Source: Candidatus Methylacidiphilum fumarolicum (GTDB lineage: Bacteria > Verrucomicrobiota > Verrucomicrobiia > Methylacidiphilales > Methylacidiphilaceae). From it: DNA of 64,000 nt. The translations under genes were made by a program, and so were the position numbers. The stretch is taken from positions 1,178,001-1,242,000 of the forward strand of contig NZ_OX458932.1 of NCBI RefSeq assembly GCF_949774925.1, read 5' to 3'. The notes under the pieces were generated by a model. It saw only the letters and a list, made by a program, of their open reading frames with translations, was not told the DNA's origin and made no database searches. Shown here piece by piece: positions 4,420-59,589 of this stretch (positions are counted from its first letter, which is position 1; each line of letters opens with the position of its first letter).

Positions 4420-4501
4420 TTTGCCAGTTGTCCTAGCAATAGAATTATTAGAGTAATGAATGGTTATTGCTATTGCCATGCCAATCTAGTTATAAATTGG
4501 C

Positions 4502-5108
4502 CTGGCGAACCTATATTCGCCGAAGAAGTTTGGCATGCTGATCAATCGAAGCGTAAACAGATAATAGCGATGGGCATTGGGAAGGGGGGTTGCTTGCCAA
4601 ACGGACTCCAACGAACCAGCGGTATGACCACCATGAGGACTACCTGTGGGTGATTGGCTAAAAGGCGACAAAAGCGCTGTACAAGCTCCTACCCAAAGGT
4701 CTCCAGCGCCGGGGAGAAGGGGGATCTAAAGAATCAGCGGAAAGCTCTGGCAGCGTTTTGTTTGGCGCAAGGCAAAACGGTGGCCAAACGGCTGGGGGGG
4801 GTGAAAGCAGCGGACTAAACAACAAGAGAAAGAATTTCTTGCGTCTGATGGAGCTGGGAGAGATCTCCGAGATCGTGGTCATCCACAAGGGTCGGCTGGT
4901 CCGGTTCGGTTTCGGATGGCCCCTAGACGTTTTGTTCCTCTCTTAGGACCAAGATTTCGTGAACGGGCAAATCTCTCTCTTTTTGAAGGAAGAGATGATC
5001 AAGGAGCTCCTTTCGATCGTTCCCTGCTTTTCCAAGCCCTATTTTCAGTTTGAGCCAATACAAAAGAAAAGACCTAAGGCCATCGGGAAAGCCGATGAGA
5101 TCGTATAA
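4502..5108 (+). pseudogene. IS607-type serine recombinase (tnpA) remnant
   Basis: The N-terminus is readable as LANLYSPKKFGMLINRSVN, the MerR-like helix-turn-helix start of IS607 TnpA (the inverted copy B reads MANIHSPKKFGALIG). Stops follow, then about 4841-4917 reads ELGEISEIVVIHKGRLVRFG, matching the recombinase signature usually written V-HKDRLARFGFEW. The C-terminal part near 4989-5108 (KEEMIKELLSIVPCFSK) resembles the usual recombinase end. The first codon is now CTG and several frame breaks exist, so it is a pseudogene. Confidence 0.75.
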
Positions 5109-5111
5109 GAC

Positions 5112-6480
5112 GTGGCGGCGAACGATCCGAGTAGGGAGAGTCTTCCGCTGAACACGAAGAAGTGGGAGATACTAGAGTATCTTTGCCTTTGCTACACAGC
5201 TGGAAAAGAGCGGTTTCTTGTCTCTTTCTCAGGCTTGGACCACTTCGCGGAAAGCCTCTCGAAACGCGGGAAGCAAGCCAAACTCGTGGTGGAAGGCTAC
5301 GCTAGCCCCAGGCGGATTGCTGGCAAAAATGTGGAAGGTATTCCTCAAAGACGGCTAGGCAAAGATCGAAAAGTGTGGGTTAGTCTCCTCTACGATGATT
5401 AACCCAAAGATCTGGCACCGCTTGAGATAGACAGAAGAAGCAAAGCGGGTTGCTTTCTAGATATTCCACTCTCTGCAGTGGATGGCTTCTGTGTTAGGAA
5501 AAAGAGAGCCGCAGCATCTGAATTTCACATCACAAACGAGAGGCAAGCTGCCATCCTTACAAGGTTGAGAAAGGGCTTACAAAAAGTAATCGGAAAGTAG
5601 CCAAGAGTGAAGAAAGTTCATTCGATTGTATGCGAGGAATGAAGGTAGCAGACTTGTGAAGAGAAGGGGAGGCAGTATATCGCGCTCATAAGCCTTGAAT
5701 GTGGCAAAAGGATTGTCATTCCACTGTCAGGCAATCTGAAGATTCGGGGAATGATTCACCTTGTTTTAAAGGAAAAGAGAGTCGTTATTCACTACGCGGC
5801 GCCACTCAAAGTTTCGAAGCGATTAGAGGGGGGAAGCGGTCAGGATAGAGGCTGGACTTTCTGATGTTTTCACAGATGACCACGGAAAGAAAATAGGGAA
5901 AATGGTTTGAGGAGTAAACCAAGACGCATCCACAAGCATAACCTAGGGAAGAAAAAGCGGTTGAGTCGTTTATTCAAGGCGGAGACAGAAATAGGGAGGC
6001 GGGTAGGCTTAAGCCTGCGACAACTCCTCAAGCTACAAAGACCTTCGGTAATTGTTTCTGAATCCTTAGATTTTCGTGGGAAAGCCCTAAGCAAAGAACT
6101 TTCTAGGCGCCTCCTACAAATGCGCAGCTGTGTGCTTCAAGAGCGAATCCAATTGCTGGCGCCTGGGGGAGGTTCCCGTCGATAGCAGGTCAATCCAGCC
6201 TATAGCTCTCTGGCTTTGTCCGAAGTGCGGTTATGTCCATCCTAAGAACCGCACTGGAGACAAGTTTGTGTGCCAGCATGACGGGCATATGAGCTATGCT
6301 GATAGGGTTGACACATACAACCACAAGGAAGGATCGGAGATCCGGAGAATATTATCGTGGATGCTGCGGAACCAGCTGCATGCGATCCTCTTGGAAAGGT
6401 TTTCGACAGGAACGGGAAACCGCCAGATTAGAATCCTGATGAGTGGTGGACTGATCCTGGGAGGCAGACTCCAGGTACAG
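5112..6480 (+). pseudogene. TnpB (IS607-associated) remnant
   Basis: Fragments of TnpB are spread over different frames. 5140-5400 encodes an N-terminal piece (LPLNTKKWEILEYLCLCY...). About 5845-5900 reads EAGLSDVFTDDHGKK, the RuvC-I neighbourhood (GIDAGLSEVFTDDHG in the least-damaged reading). About 6210-6320 reads CPKCGYVHPKNRTGDKFVCQ, the zinc-ribbon segment, followed by YADRVDTYN, the RuvC-III region. TnpB proteins are RNA-guided nucleases that act with a RNA from the element's right end. This copy is non-functional because of stops and frameshifts. Confidence 0.75.
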
Positions 6481-6695
6481 ACCAACCGCAGCGGATGGAC
6501 GCAAAGCGGGAGCGATTGTTATCGCGACTTGTGGGAGCGCCGGCGGATCGTCCGCCGCGGCTCGTCAATATCTCGCCACTTCCCTGGAGAATGAAACGGC
6601 CTTGGCAATCCCTGGATCATCCCTGGCCACAACCAAGGCGAAAAGAACGAACTTGTGTCATGCGTAAGCAAATCCCTAGTATGATTCTAGGAACA
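6481..6695 (+). ncRNA. Candidate reRNA/omegaRNA scaffold at the right end of copy A
   Basis: After the zinc-ribbon part of tnpB a segment is shared with copies B and C: GGGAGCGCCGGCGGATCGTC followed exactly 100 bases later by CCAAGGCGAAAAGAACG (6633-6649). It contains a perfect hairpin, CGGCGGA-TCG-TCCGCCG, at 6541-6557. A short CCTAG...CTAGG hairpin lies near 6674-6690. Known TnpB systems produce their guide RNA from this location, so a relic guide-RNA scaffold is the natural reading. Transcription is not shown by the sequence and the protein partner is dead. Confidence 0.45.
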
Positions 6696-7394
6696 GTTTA
6701 CACCAATTGGAAAAGCAGCTCAGACATCTCAGTATCTCAATTCTTTCAATATATTTTGGGTATTGTTCTATTTTTTTATACAACGATCACTTTCTGGATA
6801 AAGGTCGAAAGCGCCTATTTACCTTGGCGCTTATATATGTATAGCTGGATACCCTCTATTGACATTCTTTCCGCCGTTTTCAAATAGTATGTCTATATTC
6901 AAAGCTGCTCTCCTTATGCCTGCCTTTTTGAGCCTGGAAAACTGCTCTAGCAGTTTCCTCGACATATCTCCTTGCAACAGGCACACGTGGTGGGCAGGCA
7001 TCCATCGGGGCAGTACGGATACAAAACACGCGGTCGATGTCCCTTTCCATGCCTAGAAGAGTCAATCCCCCTTGGTCGTAATACTCTGCGATGTTTCCGT
7101 AGGCGGCCTCGCCATAAACCCTCAGATCGGAACTATCTCTATGCCTGAAACATAGCTTTAAAGGCCAAAGGCTATAGGAATGCCTTAGGGGAGGTTGAAG
7201 CTGCACCTCATCCTTTTTATTTGTCTACCAGTATTCTCTAGCATAATAGGAGCTTAGAGATAGGCTAGCGTGATCTAGTTTTAGTCGCAGATGGCAAGCA
7301 ACACCCCAGAAAATGGTATAGATTTTTCCCCGAGAATAGTTTACAACTTATAAAGGGTGATGAGAAGCTCATCCTCTTTAGGGATAGGGGAGTA
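6696..7394. other. About 700 bases without a recognised gene
   Basis: The stretch between the IS607 relic and the Dabb-domain gene has one 108-codon open frame on the minus strand (6880-7206; contains RVFCIRTAPMDACPP and RRYVEETARAVFQAQKG). I do not recognise it. Codon use and the surrounding debris suggest a gene fragment rather than an intact gene. The rest is AT-rich with no hairpin or promoter that stands out. Confidence 0.5.
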
Positions 7395-12625: not shown

Positions 12626-12892
12626 AAGTAGTTCCTTTAAAAGTTTGTTGAATGGATAGAATGATCGTTTATCCCTATAAAGTTTGTAGACAGAAAAGAA
12701 TTAATTACTTCTACTTTCTTACAACAATGCTTTTATTTCTATAAAACTAAAAAATAAAAATGAAGTTTCTTTTAGAAAGCTGTTCTTTCTGTCTTTTGCT
12801 TTAGGCTAATTAGGCTAATAGCTCAAGACGATAATGCCACTCCTTGCACTATCTCATTAGTTGTTGCCACTGATGCTCATGGAATTTGTCTG

Positions 12893-13075
12893 TTCCTAAA
12901 AATTCCTAAAAACATCCTAGGGACTTGCTTACGCCTGATGCCCCAAGTGCGTTCTTTTCGCCTTGGTTTTGGCCGGAAGGTCCCGAGATACCCAAGACCG
13001 TTTCGTTCTCCGAGGGAGCGGTGTGATGTTGATGTGTAAGCTGCGGACGATCCACCGGTGCTCCCACGGGTCACG
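12893..13075 (-). ncRNA. Candidate reRNA/omegaRNA scaffold of copy B
   Basis: On the minus strand this end carries GGGAGCACCGGTGGATCGTC (from 13065 downward) and, 95 bases later, CCAAGGCGAAAAGAACG (12966-12950). These are the same two blocks in the same order and near-identical spacing as copies A and C. The hairpin equivalent at 13041-13057 is CGGTGGA-TCG-TCCGCAG, which keeps most pairs, one as a G-U. Function is inferred from the location only. Confidence 0.4.
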
Positions 13076-14295
13076 ATGGCAATCGTTACTGCTTCGCGTC
13101 CATCCGCTGCGGTTGGCCGACGCCTGGAGTTGTCCGCCCCAGAACAGTCCCCTTCATAGGGATTCCCGTCGAGGGGTGCCTGCTATTACAGATAAACCCC
13201 TCCAAAGGCATTGCATGCAGCCAGTTCTACGGTGTCTACAGGGATATCTCCGGATCTCTGATCCCTTTTTTTGAGGTTGCATACCCAAACACGATCCACA
13301 CAGCTTTCGTACCAGAAATGCAGACATGCAAACCTGTCTCCGGCGCGGTTCTTTGGATAGACATATTCACACTGGGGCAAAACTAAGAGCTATAGGCTGG
13401 ATAGCCCTTCTCTCTGGCCGGGAACCTCCCTAGGCGCTAGCAATTCGATTCGCTTCCGAAGGCCTCGGTCCGCATCTGGATGACGCGCCGGAAAATTCCT
13501 TTGCTCGAAGCGCGACCCAGAAAGTCGAGAATCTCCGATGGCTTCCGTAAAGCTAGGAATTAGCGCAAGCAGGAATTCACTTTGTGCTCGATTTCCGCAT
13601 GCACCATTGACAGGTCCTTGTCATTATCCCGGATCGCATGAAGCCTGCCCCGCTTCTCCCCCTTCTCCTTGTGGACCCAAGACAACCGGGCGAGCAACTC
13701 GCCGAAGCATTTCCCATACCTATTCCCATGATCGTTAGTGAAGACTTCAGAGAGACCGACGTTGATGCCGCCGGAGGGGGATTTTGGTCTCATGAAACTA
13801 GCAAAAAGTCTCGAACTATTCGAAACCGAACCGGACTAGCCTGTCCTTGTGAGTCACCTCGATCCCGGAGATCTCGACCCATTTCTCCAGCTCCATCAGA
13901 CATGAGGAAATTCTTTCTCTTGTAGTTTAGTCCGCTGCTTTCAATCCCTAAGCTGTTTGGCCAACGTTTTGCCTTGTGCCAGATAAAACCTTGCCAGAGC
14001 TTGCTACTGATCCTTCAGATCCTCCTTTTGCCCAGCGCTTGAGACTTTTGTATACAAACTGGTGCGACGTTCTCGTCGTGTCTTTTGATTGATCCCCCGC
14101 ATGTAGTCCTCATAGGGGGAATACAGCCAGTTTATTGGGGTCCATTAGACAAGAAACACCCATCTAGACGATAATCATTGCTGGCTGTTTAGGATCCAAC
14201 CAATCAGCGCACCAAATTTCTTCGGCGAATGTATGTTCGCCATTTCTTTTTATAACTAGATTGGCATCACAATAGCGATGATGATTCTTTACTCT
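12893..14295 (-). mobile_element. Decayed IS607-type element, copy B (inverted)
   Basis: Reverse-complement reading gives the same order as copy A. First comes a tnpA start (14246 downward: MANIHSPKKFGALIG), then THKDRLVRFGFE near 13835. The RuvC-I region of tnpB follows near 13760 (GGINVGLSEVFTNDHGNRYG, with Asp changed to Asn), then a zinc-ribbon piece near 13340 (QCEYVYPKNRAGDRFAC). The shared 3' tail ends at 12893. At 1.4 kb it is shorter than copy A (2.2 kb), because much of tnpB between RuvC-I and the zinc ribbon is deleted. It is G+C-richer than the neighbours and not functional. Confidence 0.8.
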
Positions 14296-57030: not shown

Positions 57031-57045
57031 AAGAATATAGGAATA

Positions 57046-57327
57046 ATGACTTTGAAAAAATGGAAAAGCGAATTTAAACTACTCACCATGGAAGTACTGA
57101 TATTATTAAATAAATTACTTATTCGCCGTGCTATCAAACGGCTTATCTTTTGCCTATCATTAGGCATCTTTTGGTTATTCGAGGCTATCTATCATTATAC
57201 CAATGCGAATCGCGAAAAAGCCCTTTGCACTTTAGCTGCGTCTGCCCTTGTTGGTGGTAGTTCGCTCCTGTCTTTGGGAATCCTGTATGGTGATCAAATT
57301 TTAAAATGGTTATCCAAGGTGCTTTGA
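57046..57327 (+). CDS. Hypothetical small membrane protein
   Basis: The 93-residue frame starts 15 bases after aroA-cmk, so co-transcription is likely. It has two hydrophobic segments (about 32-50 and 63-83, the latter with an SALVGGSSLLSLGILYG run) and a basic N-terminus. No family is recognised. The frame ends where the IS607 relic starts, so the C-terminus may be a truncation product of the insertion. Confidence 0.5.
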   Translation: MTLKKWKSEFKLLTMEVLILLNKLLIRRAIKRLIFCLSLGIFWLFEAIYHYTNANREKALCTLAASALVGGSSLLSLGILYGDQILKWLSKVL

Positions 57328-57849
57328 TCTCCATTTTGATACGACCCCCCATAAATAAACAAGTAATACTATACCCCAATATCTGCGAGGGGTCAATCAA
57401 AAGGCAACGAGAGCTCCGCACAAAAGGCTTGAGCGCCAGATAAAAGGGGGATCATTAGTGAGGAGCTCTGGAATGGTTTTGTCTAGCTCAAGGCAAAATG
57501 GTGGCTGAACGGCTAGGGGGACTGAAAGGAGCCGACTAGACTACAAAAGAAAAGAGATTCTTTACCTTTGATAGAGCTGGGAGAACAGGGGGAGATCTCC
57601 TCCCAAGTCGTAATGGCCACAAGGACCAGCGGGTCTGATTTGGCTTCGAATGGTTTGAGAAGTTGTGCTTCTCTAGTGGAACCAAAATCCACCTCATAAA
57701 TGAACAATTCTCTCTCCGAAGGGATATGTCCAAGGAGCTCCTTTCTATCATCTCTGATTTCCTAAGCCACATTTATGGGTTATGCAAATACAGAAGGAAA
57801 GACCAGAGGTCATGAGGAAAGCCGATGCAGTTGGATAAGACGATGGGTC

Positions 57850-59330
57850 AATCGATCTCGAACAGAGAGCCTTTGCCGCTCAACGGGAAGAAGCGAGAGT
57901 TTCTTGCGGGTTTTTGCCCACGCTACTCAGCTAAGAAAGAGCGTTTTCTTCACTCTTTTCTGGCTTGAGCCACTTTGCAAAAAGCCTCTGCGAACATGGG
58001 GAGCAAGGCTATCCCTTGGCGGAAGACTTCGCTTGTCTGAACGGGTTTCAGACTAGATGTGAAAATAGACACTTAAGGATGCCTTCGTGACAGTTAAGAA
58101 GAGGTTGCTTGCCTACTCAGCATGAATTGGTCCGAAGGCCCGCTGCAGAGGAGGAAGGAAAGAAACAGAAAAGAGACTTGCCTTTTGGACGCTTCGTTTC
58201 ATCGGGCAGATCTTCTTATTTCTGCGGGGAGAAACCCTCAATTATCCCTCTGTGCCTTTCCATTCTCATAGGAGAGGAAGGATGCTATATTCCTGCAGTT
58301 GCGAAAGGACCTGCAGAAGGCCAGTGGAAAGCCGCCGAGAACACAATCAAGCCATTTGGCGAGCTTCGAGGCCAGCATCTACTAGAACTGCCTCTACTGG
58401 ACCTTCGAGGAGAAGGGAGGGGGATATATCACCCTCATGAGTCTTTAATTCAGCAAGGAGATTCTAGTGCCTTTGTCCTGCAAAATGGGAATCTCGGGCG
58501 ACATCCGCCTTGTTCTGAACGAGAGGGGGGATGGAGATCCATTATTTAGCGGCGGTAAAAATTCCGAAGCGGCTTGAAGGCGAAGCCGGTGGCATCGATG
58601 CAGGTCTTTCTGAGGTCTTCCCTAAGGATCATGGGATGTGGTATAGGAAAGGCTTTAGTGAGATGCTCTCCTGGTTGACATGCATCCACAAAAAGAGAGG
58701 GGAGAACCGGGGTGGGCTTCATGAGATCCAGCGGGACACTAAGTACCTATTCAAGGCCAGGCGGATCCGTAGGAAGAAGCTGGGAGGCGAATATCACCGA
58801 AAGCGGCTGCGAAAAATCACAGGTGGAAATCAAACAGCAGCCGAACACAAGCCTGAGCTTATTTATTGCTTCGCAAAAGCTCTCAGCGTCCTCATCAGAG
58901 CTCCTTTGCTTTTGGGATCATGCGCCGAGCAAGAAGCTTGCTCTATACATCATCCTGATTCGGACCGAGTCGCTTCGGAACCGAATCGAATTGCTGGTGC
59001 CTCTGGGAGGTTCCCATCGAGAGAGGGCCAACCTGGCCTATAGCTCTCTGTCTTTATCCGAATTGCAGGTATGTTCATCCAAAGAACCGTGCCAAAGACA
59101 GCTTTGCGTGCCGAGAGGGTGGATAGGAAAGTCATGCGGATTGGATTGGTGCATGCAACCTAAAAGAAATGATTGGACATCCGGAGAATATTGTAGTGGA
59201 TTCCGAAGAGCCGGCTGCCTGCGATTCTTTCGGAGAAGTTTTCCCATAGGAAGGAAAAACCGCTCGATTGGAAACTCGAGGTGGAGGGCTATTCTAGAGT
59301 GGCAGACCCCAGCTATAGACATACACTATC
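57850..59330 (+). pseudogene. TnpB remnant of copy C
   Basis: The N-terminal part near 57865-57990 reads LPLNGKKREFLAGFCPRYSA, collinear with LPLNTKKWEILEYLCLCY of copy A. RuvC-I is GIDAGLSEVF with its Asp, and a zinc-ribbon remnant lies near 59050. Several frameshifts separate the blocks. The first zinc Cys is Tyr (YPNC). Not functional. Confidence 0.7.
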
Positions 59331-59370
59331 GGATAAGCGCGAAGAAGGAGCAATTGTCATCGTGATTAAT

Positions 59371-59530
59371 GGGAGCATCGACGGATTGTACGCAGCCGGC
59401 TCTTCAATCCCATCTCTTTCTCCTAGAGAAAGAAATAGTATTGACAATTCTGTGATCTCCCGGCACAAAACCTAGGCGAAAAGAATAAACTTGGGTAAGG
59501 AGCAAGCAAGTTCTGAGTATGTTTTATAGT
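59371..59530 (+). ncRNA. Candidate reRNA/omegaRNA scaffold of copy C
   Basis: GGGAGCATCGACGGATTGTA (59371-59390) and, 100 bases later, CCTAGGCGAAAAGAATAAAC (59471-59490), as in copies A and B. The hairpin of copy A is weakened here by base changes. Evidence is conservation and position only. Confidence 0.4.
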
Positions 59531-59589
59531 AATAGATCAAAAGTGTTTTTATTAAATAATTTTTTAAAAAGCGAATTTAGGACAAATCT

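Follow-up and report, generated by a model that had tools for sequence, protein, structure and literature searches.

A repeated tail in a Methylacidiphilum genome is the right end of a dead IS607 transposon and very probably a fossil TnpB guide-RNA scaffold

Three dead copies of a TnpB-encoding IS607-type element in Candidatus Methylacidiphilum fumarolicum raise the question of why the sequence at their 3' ends appears better preserved than their broken genes, and whether it still yields a working guide RNA. The window, i.e., the whole stretch of 64,000 nucleotides that was analysed, lies within the complete SolV genome (2,476,671 bp) and contains these three copies (named A, B, and C). As the preliminary description had it, block 1 is located at 6533 (A), 13065 on the minus strand (B), and 59371 (C), and block 2 at 6633, 12966 on the minus strand, and 59471, respectively. 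The order of the two blocks is the same in the three copies with a spacing of 99–100 bases, and tnpB is broken in a different way in each of them.

Results

The repeated tail is an IS607 right end

About 55 broken copies of a long-dead IS607 transposon are present in this Methylacidiphilum genome, and the repeated tail forms their right end. A sequence search of SolV with the 3' region of copy A gave 59 matches genome-wide, tails alone matched down to 1e-26, and a covariance model of the tail identified 55 tails; the recurrence of the blocks is therefore not due to chance. Forty copies were first extracted with their surroundings, and further copies were added later. Full copies are around 2.0–2.3 kb in length, with a broken IS607 TnpA in the 5' half and a broken TnpB in the 3' half. 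When searched with the proteins of an intact relative (L136, see below), the tnpA and tnpB relics were interrupted, frameshifted, or truncated in all examined SolV copies, and broken tnpA of the same IS607 kind is present in SolV copies, A and B included.

The relic element of copy A occupies 4451–6696 on the plus strand, as delimited by the left-end and right-end patterns; its site is empty in two relatives (G001 and Kam1), where the element is replaced by GAG and AAG, respectively. The left end starts in the target GAG (4451–4453), and the right end, ...GGAACAG, lies at 6690–6696. A tnpA relic identified by tblastn with the intact L136 TnpA spans 4505–5115 (limits approximate) and contains four stops in three frames; the Pfam and NCBIfam domains of the L136 protein assign it a MerR-type helix-turn-helix and a serine recombinase. 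It is followed by a tnpB relic at 5110–6667 (start approximate) with 14 stops in two frames. Copy B is a relic element at 12890–14294 on the minus strand, at a site empty in both relatives; its tail module spans 12900–13015, and a short duplication extends the right end to 12890. Copy C (57375–59535, plus strand) has lost its left end and carries its tail module at 59421–59535; homology to G001 and Kam1 resumes at 59534. The adjoining segment at 57031–57375 is absent from the orthologous site in both relatives, as is copy C.

At the sites tested, G001 and/or Kam1 have the empty site, and in most cases the joined flanks align to it without interruption. Most empty sites hold GAG once, and occupied sites show GAG on the left and AG on the right; there is no target-site duplication, and the junctions share only this short core, which is the pattern that an IS607 serine recombinase would leave. 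These junctions show that the tail and the transposon stop at the same point, so that host DNA follows directly, in the position expected for a TnpB guide. For copy A, the host flank at 6697–6712 on the plus strand would be the guide, by analogy with described TnpB systems (PMC8612924, PMC10711439). The flanks are about 6–20% divergent from Kam1 and G001 at most sites, enough to accommodate a burst early on and decay afterwards; an apparent paradox of young insertions and old decay was considered and set aside on this ground.

An intact relative and the distribution of the family

One intact relative (L136, in the same record as L173) was found in Candidatus Methylacidiphilaceae bacterium STB_62, a metagenome-assembled genome (MAG). 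Its tnpA (614–1228) and tnpB (about 1218–2879) are both open and overlapping, with tnpB downstream of tnpA as the IS607 family requires, and are followed by the same tail, ending in ...GGAACAG at the right end. The tnpB frame extends to 21 bases short of that end. The L136 TnpA matches the NCBIfam model transpos_IS607 with 214 bits (cut-off 110) and has MerR_1 and Resolvase domains, i.e., the N-terminal MerR-type helix-turn-helix and the serine recombinase of an IS607 TnpA. In the L136 TnpB, the TNB zinc domain (PF07282) scores 42.8 bits (cut-off 26.3), and the D/E/D residues of the RuvC nuclease domain were assigned by eye (P0001). The protein stays below the cut-offs of the NCBIfam TnpB models guided_TnpB (68 vs 100) and IS607_TnpB (23 vs 350). 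This MAG element is a testable representative of the family.

Elsewhere, the covariance model of the tail found a few matches in G001, G002, G007, G008, and G009 and weak ones in G003 and G004, all of the same family. Across a sample of 288 genomes of the phylum, tail matches were confined to the genus of the window, and a closer search added one sister genus of the same family. A comparison with another TnpB family of G007 and G008 yielded nothing useful.

The conserved unit is the last 115 bases

Block 2 is present in all 40 copies first collected. Block 1 was found in 16 of the 40 copies compared, all of the A/B/C subfamily, and is missing from the other 24. The perfect 7-bp hairpin that had been reported in copy A is there (6541–6547/6551–6557), within the block 1 segment at 6533–6557 on the plus strand. 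It is not conserved as such, because block 1 belongs to one subfamily only and lies in the most variable stretch, which copy comparison identifies as a hypervariable, subfamily-specific insert. The strongly conserved unit is instead the last 114–115 bases up to the transposon end, and in copy A this segment (6582–6696, plus strand) is the right end together with the 3' part of a candidate omegaRNA/reRNA scaffold, as delimited by two alignments (A1 and A2), covariation, and a covariance model (R1). Further conservation at the nucleotide level is found upstream of this module, at about 6380–6500 in A.

The tail had been called non-coding, which is wrong for A, B, and C and holds for subfamily 2 only, where the tnpB stop precedes the tail. 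In the A/B/C subfamily consensus, as in L136, the tnpB frame crosses both blocks. In this consensus, block 1 reads as a Gly/Ser/Ala-rich segment and block 2 as KTKAKRTN, and the frame ends with the TAA of GCGTAAGC (6665–6667 in copy A).

Protein coding does not explain the conservation of the tail

The open frame in L136 and in the subfamily 1 consensus would be expected if the tail were conserved solely as the C-terminal coding end of TnpB, with no RNA function. Several observations stand against this. Within the genome, the three codon positions of the tnpB body have diversities of 0.304/0.280/0.410 and those of the tail 0.277/0.255/0.262, so that the body has a codon-phase signal and the tail has none, a comparison confounded by the exchange of tails between copies. 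Within-genome conservation profiles were dropped as evidence of constraint since the tail and body genealogies differ, and a comparison between genomes was used instead. Between L136 and the SolV consensus, third-position identity is 0.80 in the tail (24/30; p=0.001) and 0.49 in the tnpB body (219/444), and the better conservation noted in the tail than in the dead gene is borne out at this level. It is again high (0.84) upstream, at L136 2568–2717, and a variable stretch separates this upstream part from the tail. Furthermore, L136 and SolV use different reading frames over a portion of the conserved stretch (the MAG may contain an indel error there), subfamily 2 retains the tail despite its earlier stop, and the stems covary (see below). 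Coding alone is thus very improbable as the reason for the conservation; on these sequence comparisons, the tail is conserved as nucleic acid.

The genealogies of tails and bodies differ in both directions, with bodies 4–6% apart carrying tails 25–27% apart and bodies 12–13% apart carrying nearly identical tails (L075 vs L088, L089 vs L098, L098 vs L101, and L086 vs L088). The pattern looks as if copies had swapped 3' modules.

The tail forms a covarying RNA structure

Default RNAalifold on alignment A1 gave almost no consensus structure (-0.25 kcal/mol), and a named structure was therefore counted against controls. The structure comprises 28 pairs; it was obtained with RIBOSUM scoring on a gap-filtered alignment and therefore leans to that sequence set. 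It consists of helix D (GTCTTGG/CCAAGGC) with an inner hairpin and helix E (AAGAACGAACTTGGG/CCCGAGTATGTTTTT) capped by GCGTAAGC. In copy A, helix D (6599–6639, plus strand) pairs GCCTTGG (6599–6605) with CCAAGGC (6633–6639) of block 2 around an inner CCCGG/CCGGG hairpin, and helix E (6643–6688, plus strand) pairs AAGAACG(A)ACTTGTG with CCCTAGT(A)TGATTCT beneath the cap, a GNRA-type loop.

Pairs were counted on a separate MAFFT alignment with added lineages. Cells in which both sides had changed numbered 42, compared with 22.4 ± 4.2 in shuffles (0/500), and the covariation score was 0.219, compared with 0.188 ± 0.008 for shuffled alignments and 0.04–0.10 for slid structures; an earlier count on 50 sequences agrees. 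Covariation supports the fold: helix D has UA to AU double changes in six sequences, helix E has them in L231/L232 and, independently, in L136, and by genome the double changes fall in the separate lineages G007/G008 and G009. A structured RNA therefore extends up to the transposon boundary at the right end, with the null result of default RNAalifold as a caveat. An Rfam scan of the window and of L136 2300–3000 matched no guide-RNA family; the RAGATH-18 model had no match in the window at the gathering threshold or in L136 2300–3000 at E<=1, where the sole hit of the scan is unrelated and due to chance.

The terminal GGAACAG is complementary to an upstream motif with the consensus CTGTTCC (CTGATCC at 6451–6457 on the plus strand in copy A). 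As a covarying stem this helix was rejected: it is paired in 86% over 43 sequences compared with 85% in row shuffles, with no covariation. CTGATCC/GGAACAG is retained as a candidate guide-adjacent pairing or pseudoknot.

These results support a structured, covarying RNA at the place where IS607 and IS605 TnpBs make their guide RNA. A plain DNA end bound by the TnpA recombinase, with incidental structure, would likewise stop exactly at the transposon end; the IS1535 TnpA binds about 70 bp of its own left end (PMC6188088), and two copies at different sites (L186 and L190) keep just about 60 tail bases. However, conservation runs well past 60 bases, a DNA recognition site would not require compensatory changes in pairs, and known IS607 and IS605 elements produce guide RNA here (PMC8612924, PMC10711439, PMC11061315), which together make the DNA-only explanation quite unlikely.

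The tail RNA is very probably a fossil

The tail RNA shows no sign of being kept working. Changes private to single copies are as dense in the tail (0.0200) and the right end (0.0196) as in tnpB (0.0152–0.0166), and among private changes in stems the pair is kept in 9 cases, compared with 9.7 expected by chance. An intact TnpB of this family, which the preliminary description had raised as a possible partner, is absent from the SolV genome. The best SolV candidate (L079, G000 310.7–312.0 kb) has an open TnpB frame of 386 codons and was ruled out as a living TnpB: it lacks the N-terminus, and the RuvC-I and RuvC-III aspartates are replaced by N and E, respectively. Neither an intact TnpB of the family nor a current constraint on the RNA, as a guide RNA acting in trans would imply, was found in SolV.

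L081 and L082 are 99% identical, have their stops in common, and occupy different sites; therefore, broken copies moved after breaking. This movement, and a second TnpB family with long open frames in SolV, could be taken to mean that transcription of the RNAs continues and that they serve, in trans, a TnpB encoded elsewhere in the genome. However, TnpA in trans explains the movement with no RNA function, the 3' end of the second TnpB family differs by eye, and the substitution and pairing counts and the defective L079 also stand against it; such use is very improbable. The suggestion that the RNA part outlived the protein through current use is therefore not supported, while a structured, covarying RNA just inside the right end, at the guide-RNA position, is supported.

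Shortened forms also occur at different sites. L180 and L181 (G000 1685667–1685966 and 1697699–1697999) are miniatures of around 300 bp, 84% identical, which share an internal deletion and keep the left end and the tail. L186 and L190 (G000 609564–610332 and 539208–539923) share a deletion form in which the start of tnpB is fused to the last 60 or so bases of the tail, suggesting that about 60 bases may be enough as a right end.

Discussion

The tail is very probably the terminal 3' part, right end included, of a degenerate IS607 element that carried a TnpB omegaRNA/reRNA scaffold, now a fossil. In the living element, the last 115 or so bases would have been transcribed as the scaffold, which probably extended upstream into tnpB by over 100 bases more; the guide would have been the host DNA directly past the right end, and the probable TAM is the GAG-type motif found at the left junction. 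Processing of this RNA, its binding by TnpB, and the use of TAM and guide would have followed as in known systems. Within the A/B/C subfamily, the last part of tnpB would belong to the scaffold as well; in the other subfamily, the gene ends before it. The element probably multiplied within the lineage of SolV, the simplest timing being after the split from the sequenced relatives, and then decayed; all copies are now broken.

The difference in preservation between tail and protein dates to the lifetime of the element. In dead transposons, RNA can appear better preserved than protein though unused, because constraint acted before the element died. There is also an outside chance that, in the recent past, the broken copies were dispersed non-autonomous guide-RNA units, each with its own guide, which TnpA and TnpB supplied in trans from one or a few living copies moved and protected; selection would then have acted on ends and RNA and not on proteins. 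Copies moved after breaking, miniatures with the tail, and swapped tails fit such units without requiring them.

The fossil element adds a divergent IS607 TnpB lineage of about 550 amino acids that current TnpB models match weakly. It has its own guide-RNA scaffold, which lacks an Rfam match and was found in this analysis only in the Methylacidiphilaceae.

Within SolV, the IS200/IS605-like family L033–L046 also consists of many copies with a TnpB nuclease; it differs from the tail family in that its 3' end looks unrelated by eye, its frames are long or have a single stop, and its copies are near-identical. Several of its members share the same TAG, and the final codons of the family overlap an apparent TCCATCC/GGATGGA hairpin. 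Loci with a Resolvase domain of another type (L061, L063, L064, and L065) have one TGA and one TAG each.

Three described systems are comparable. In ISDra2 (IS200/IS605), the reRNA consists of the tnpB 3' end, the right end, and around 16 nt of flank as guide (PMC8612924), an arrangement that the tail would share, since it combines the end of tnpB with the right end and has the guide position beyond; ISDra2 differs in its Y1 transposase, its ends and target, and its distant TnpB. The IS607 element ISXfa1 has a reRNA of about 150 nt across the transposon boundary (PMC10711439), and the nucleotides flanking its guide are assumed to pair with a stem-loop, much as GGAACAG and CTGTTCC may do in the tail; ISXfa1, compared here by its published description, is active, whereas the SolV copies are dead. 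ISFba1-type IS607 TnpBs use a RAGATH-18-derived reRNA with a 187-nt scaffold containing a pseudoknot and cut beside their TAM, AGGAG (PMC11061315). Here too, an IS607 element carries a structured RNA at its right end, and AGGAG is close to the GAG target. The ISFba1 pseudoknot joins distant parts of the scaffold, for which CTGTTCC/GGAACAG, complementary without covariation, is a candidate counterpart. Unlike in ISFba1, the RNA has no Rfam match, it overlaps the frame in one subfamily instead of starting downstream of tnpB, the TnpB has about 550 amino acids compared with about 390, and the system is known from its sequence. By its place and its conserved fold, the tail fits the known kind of TnpB guide RNA, and for the living ancestor it is well supported as an additional member of that class.
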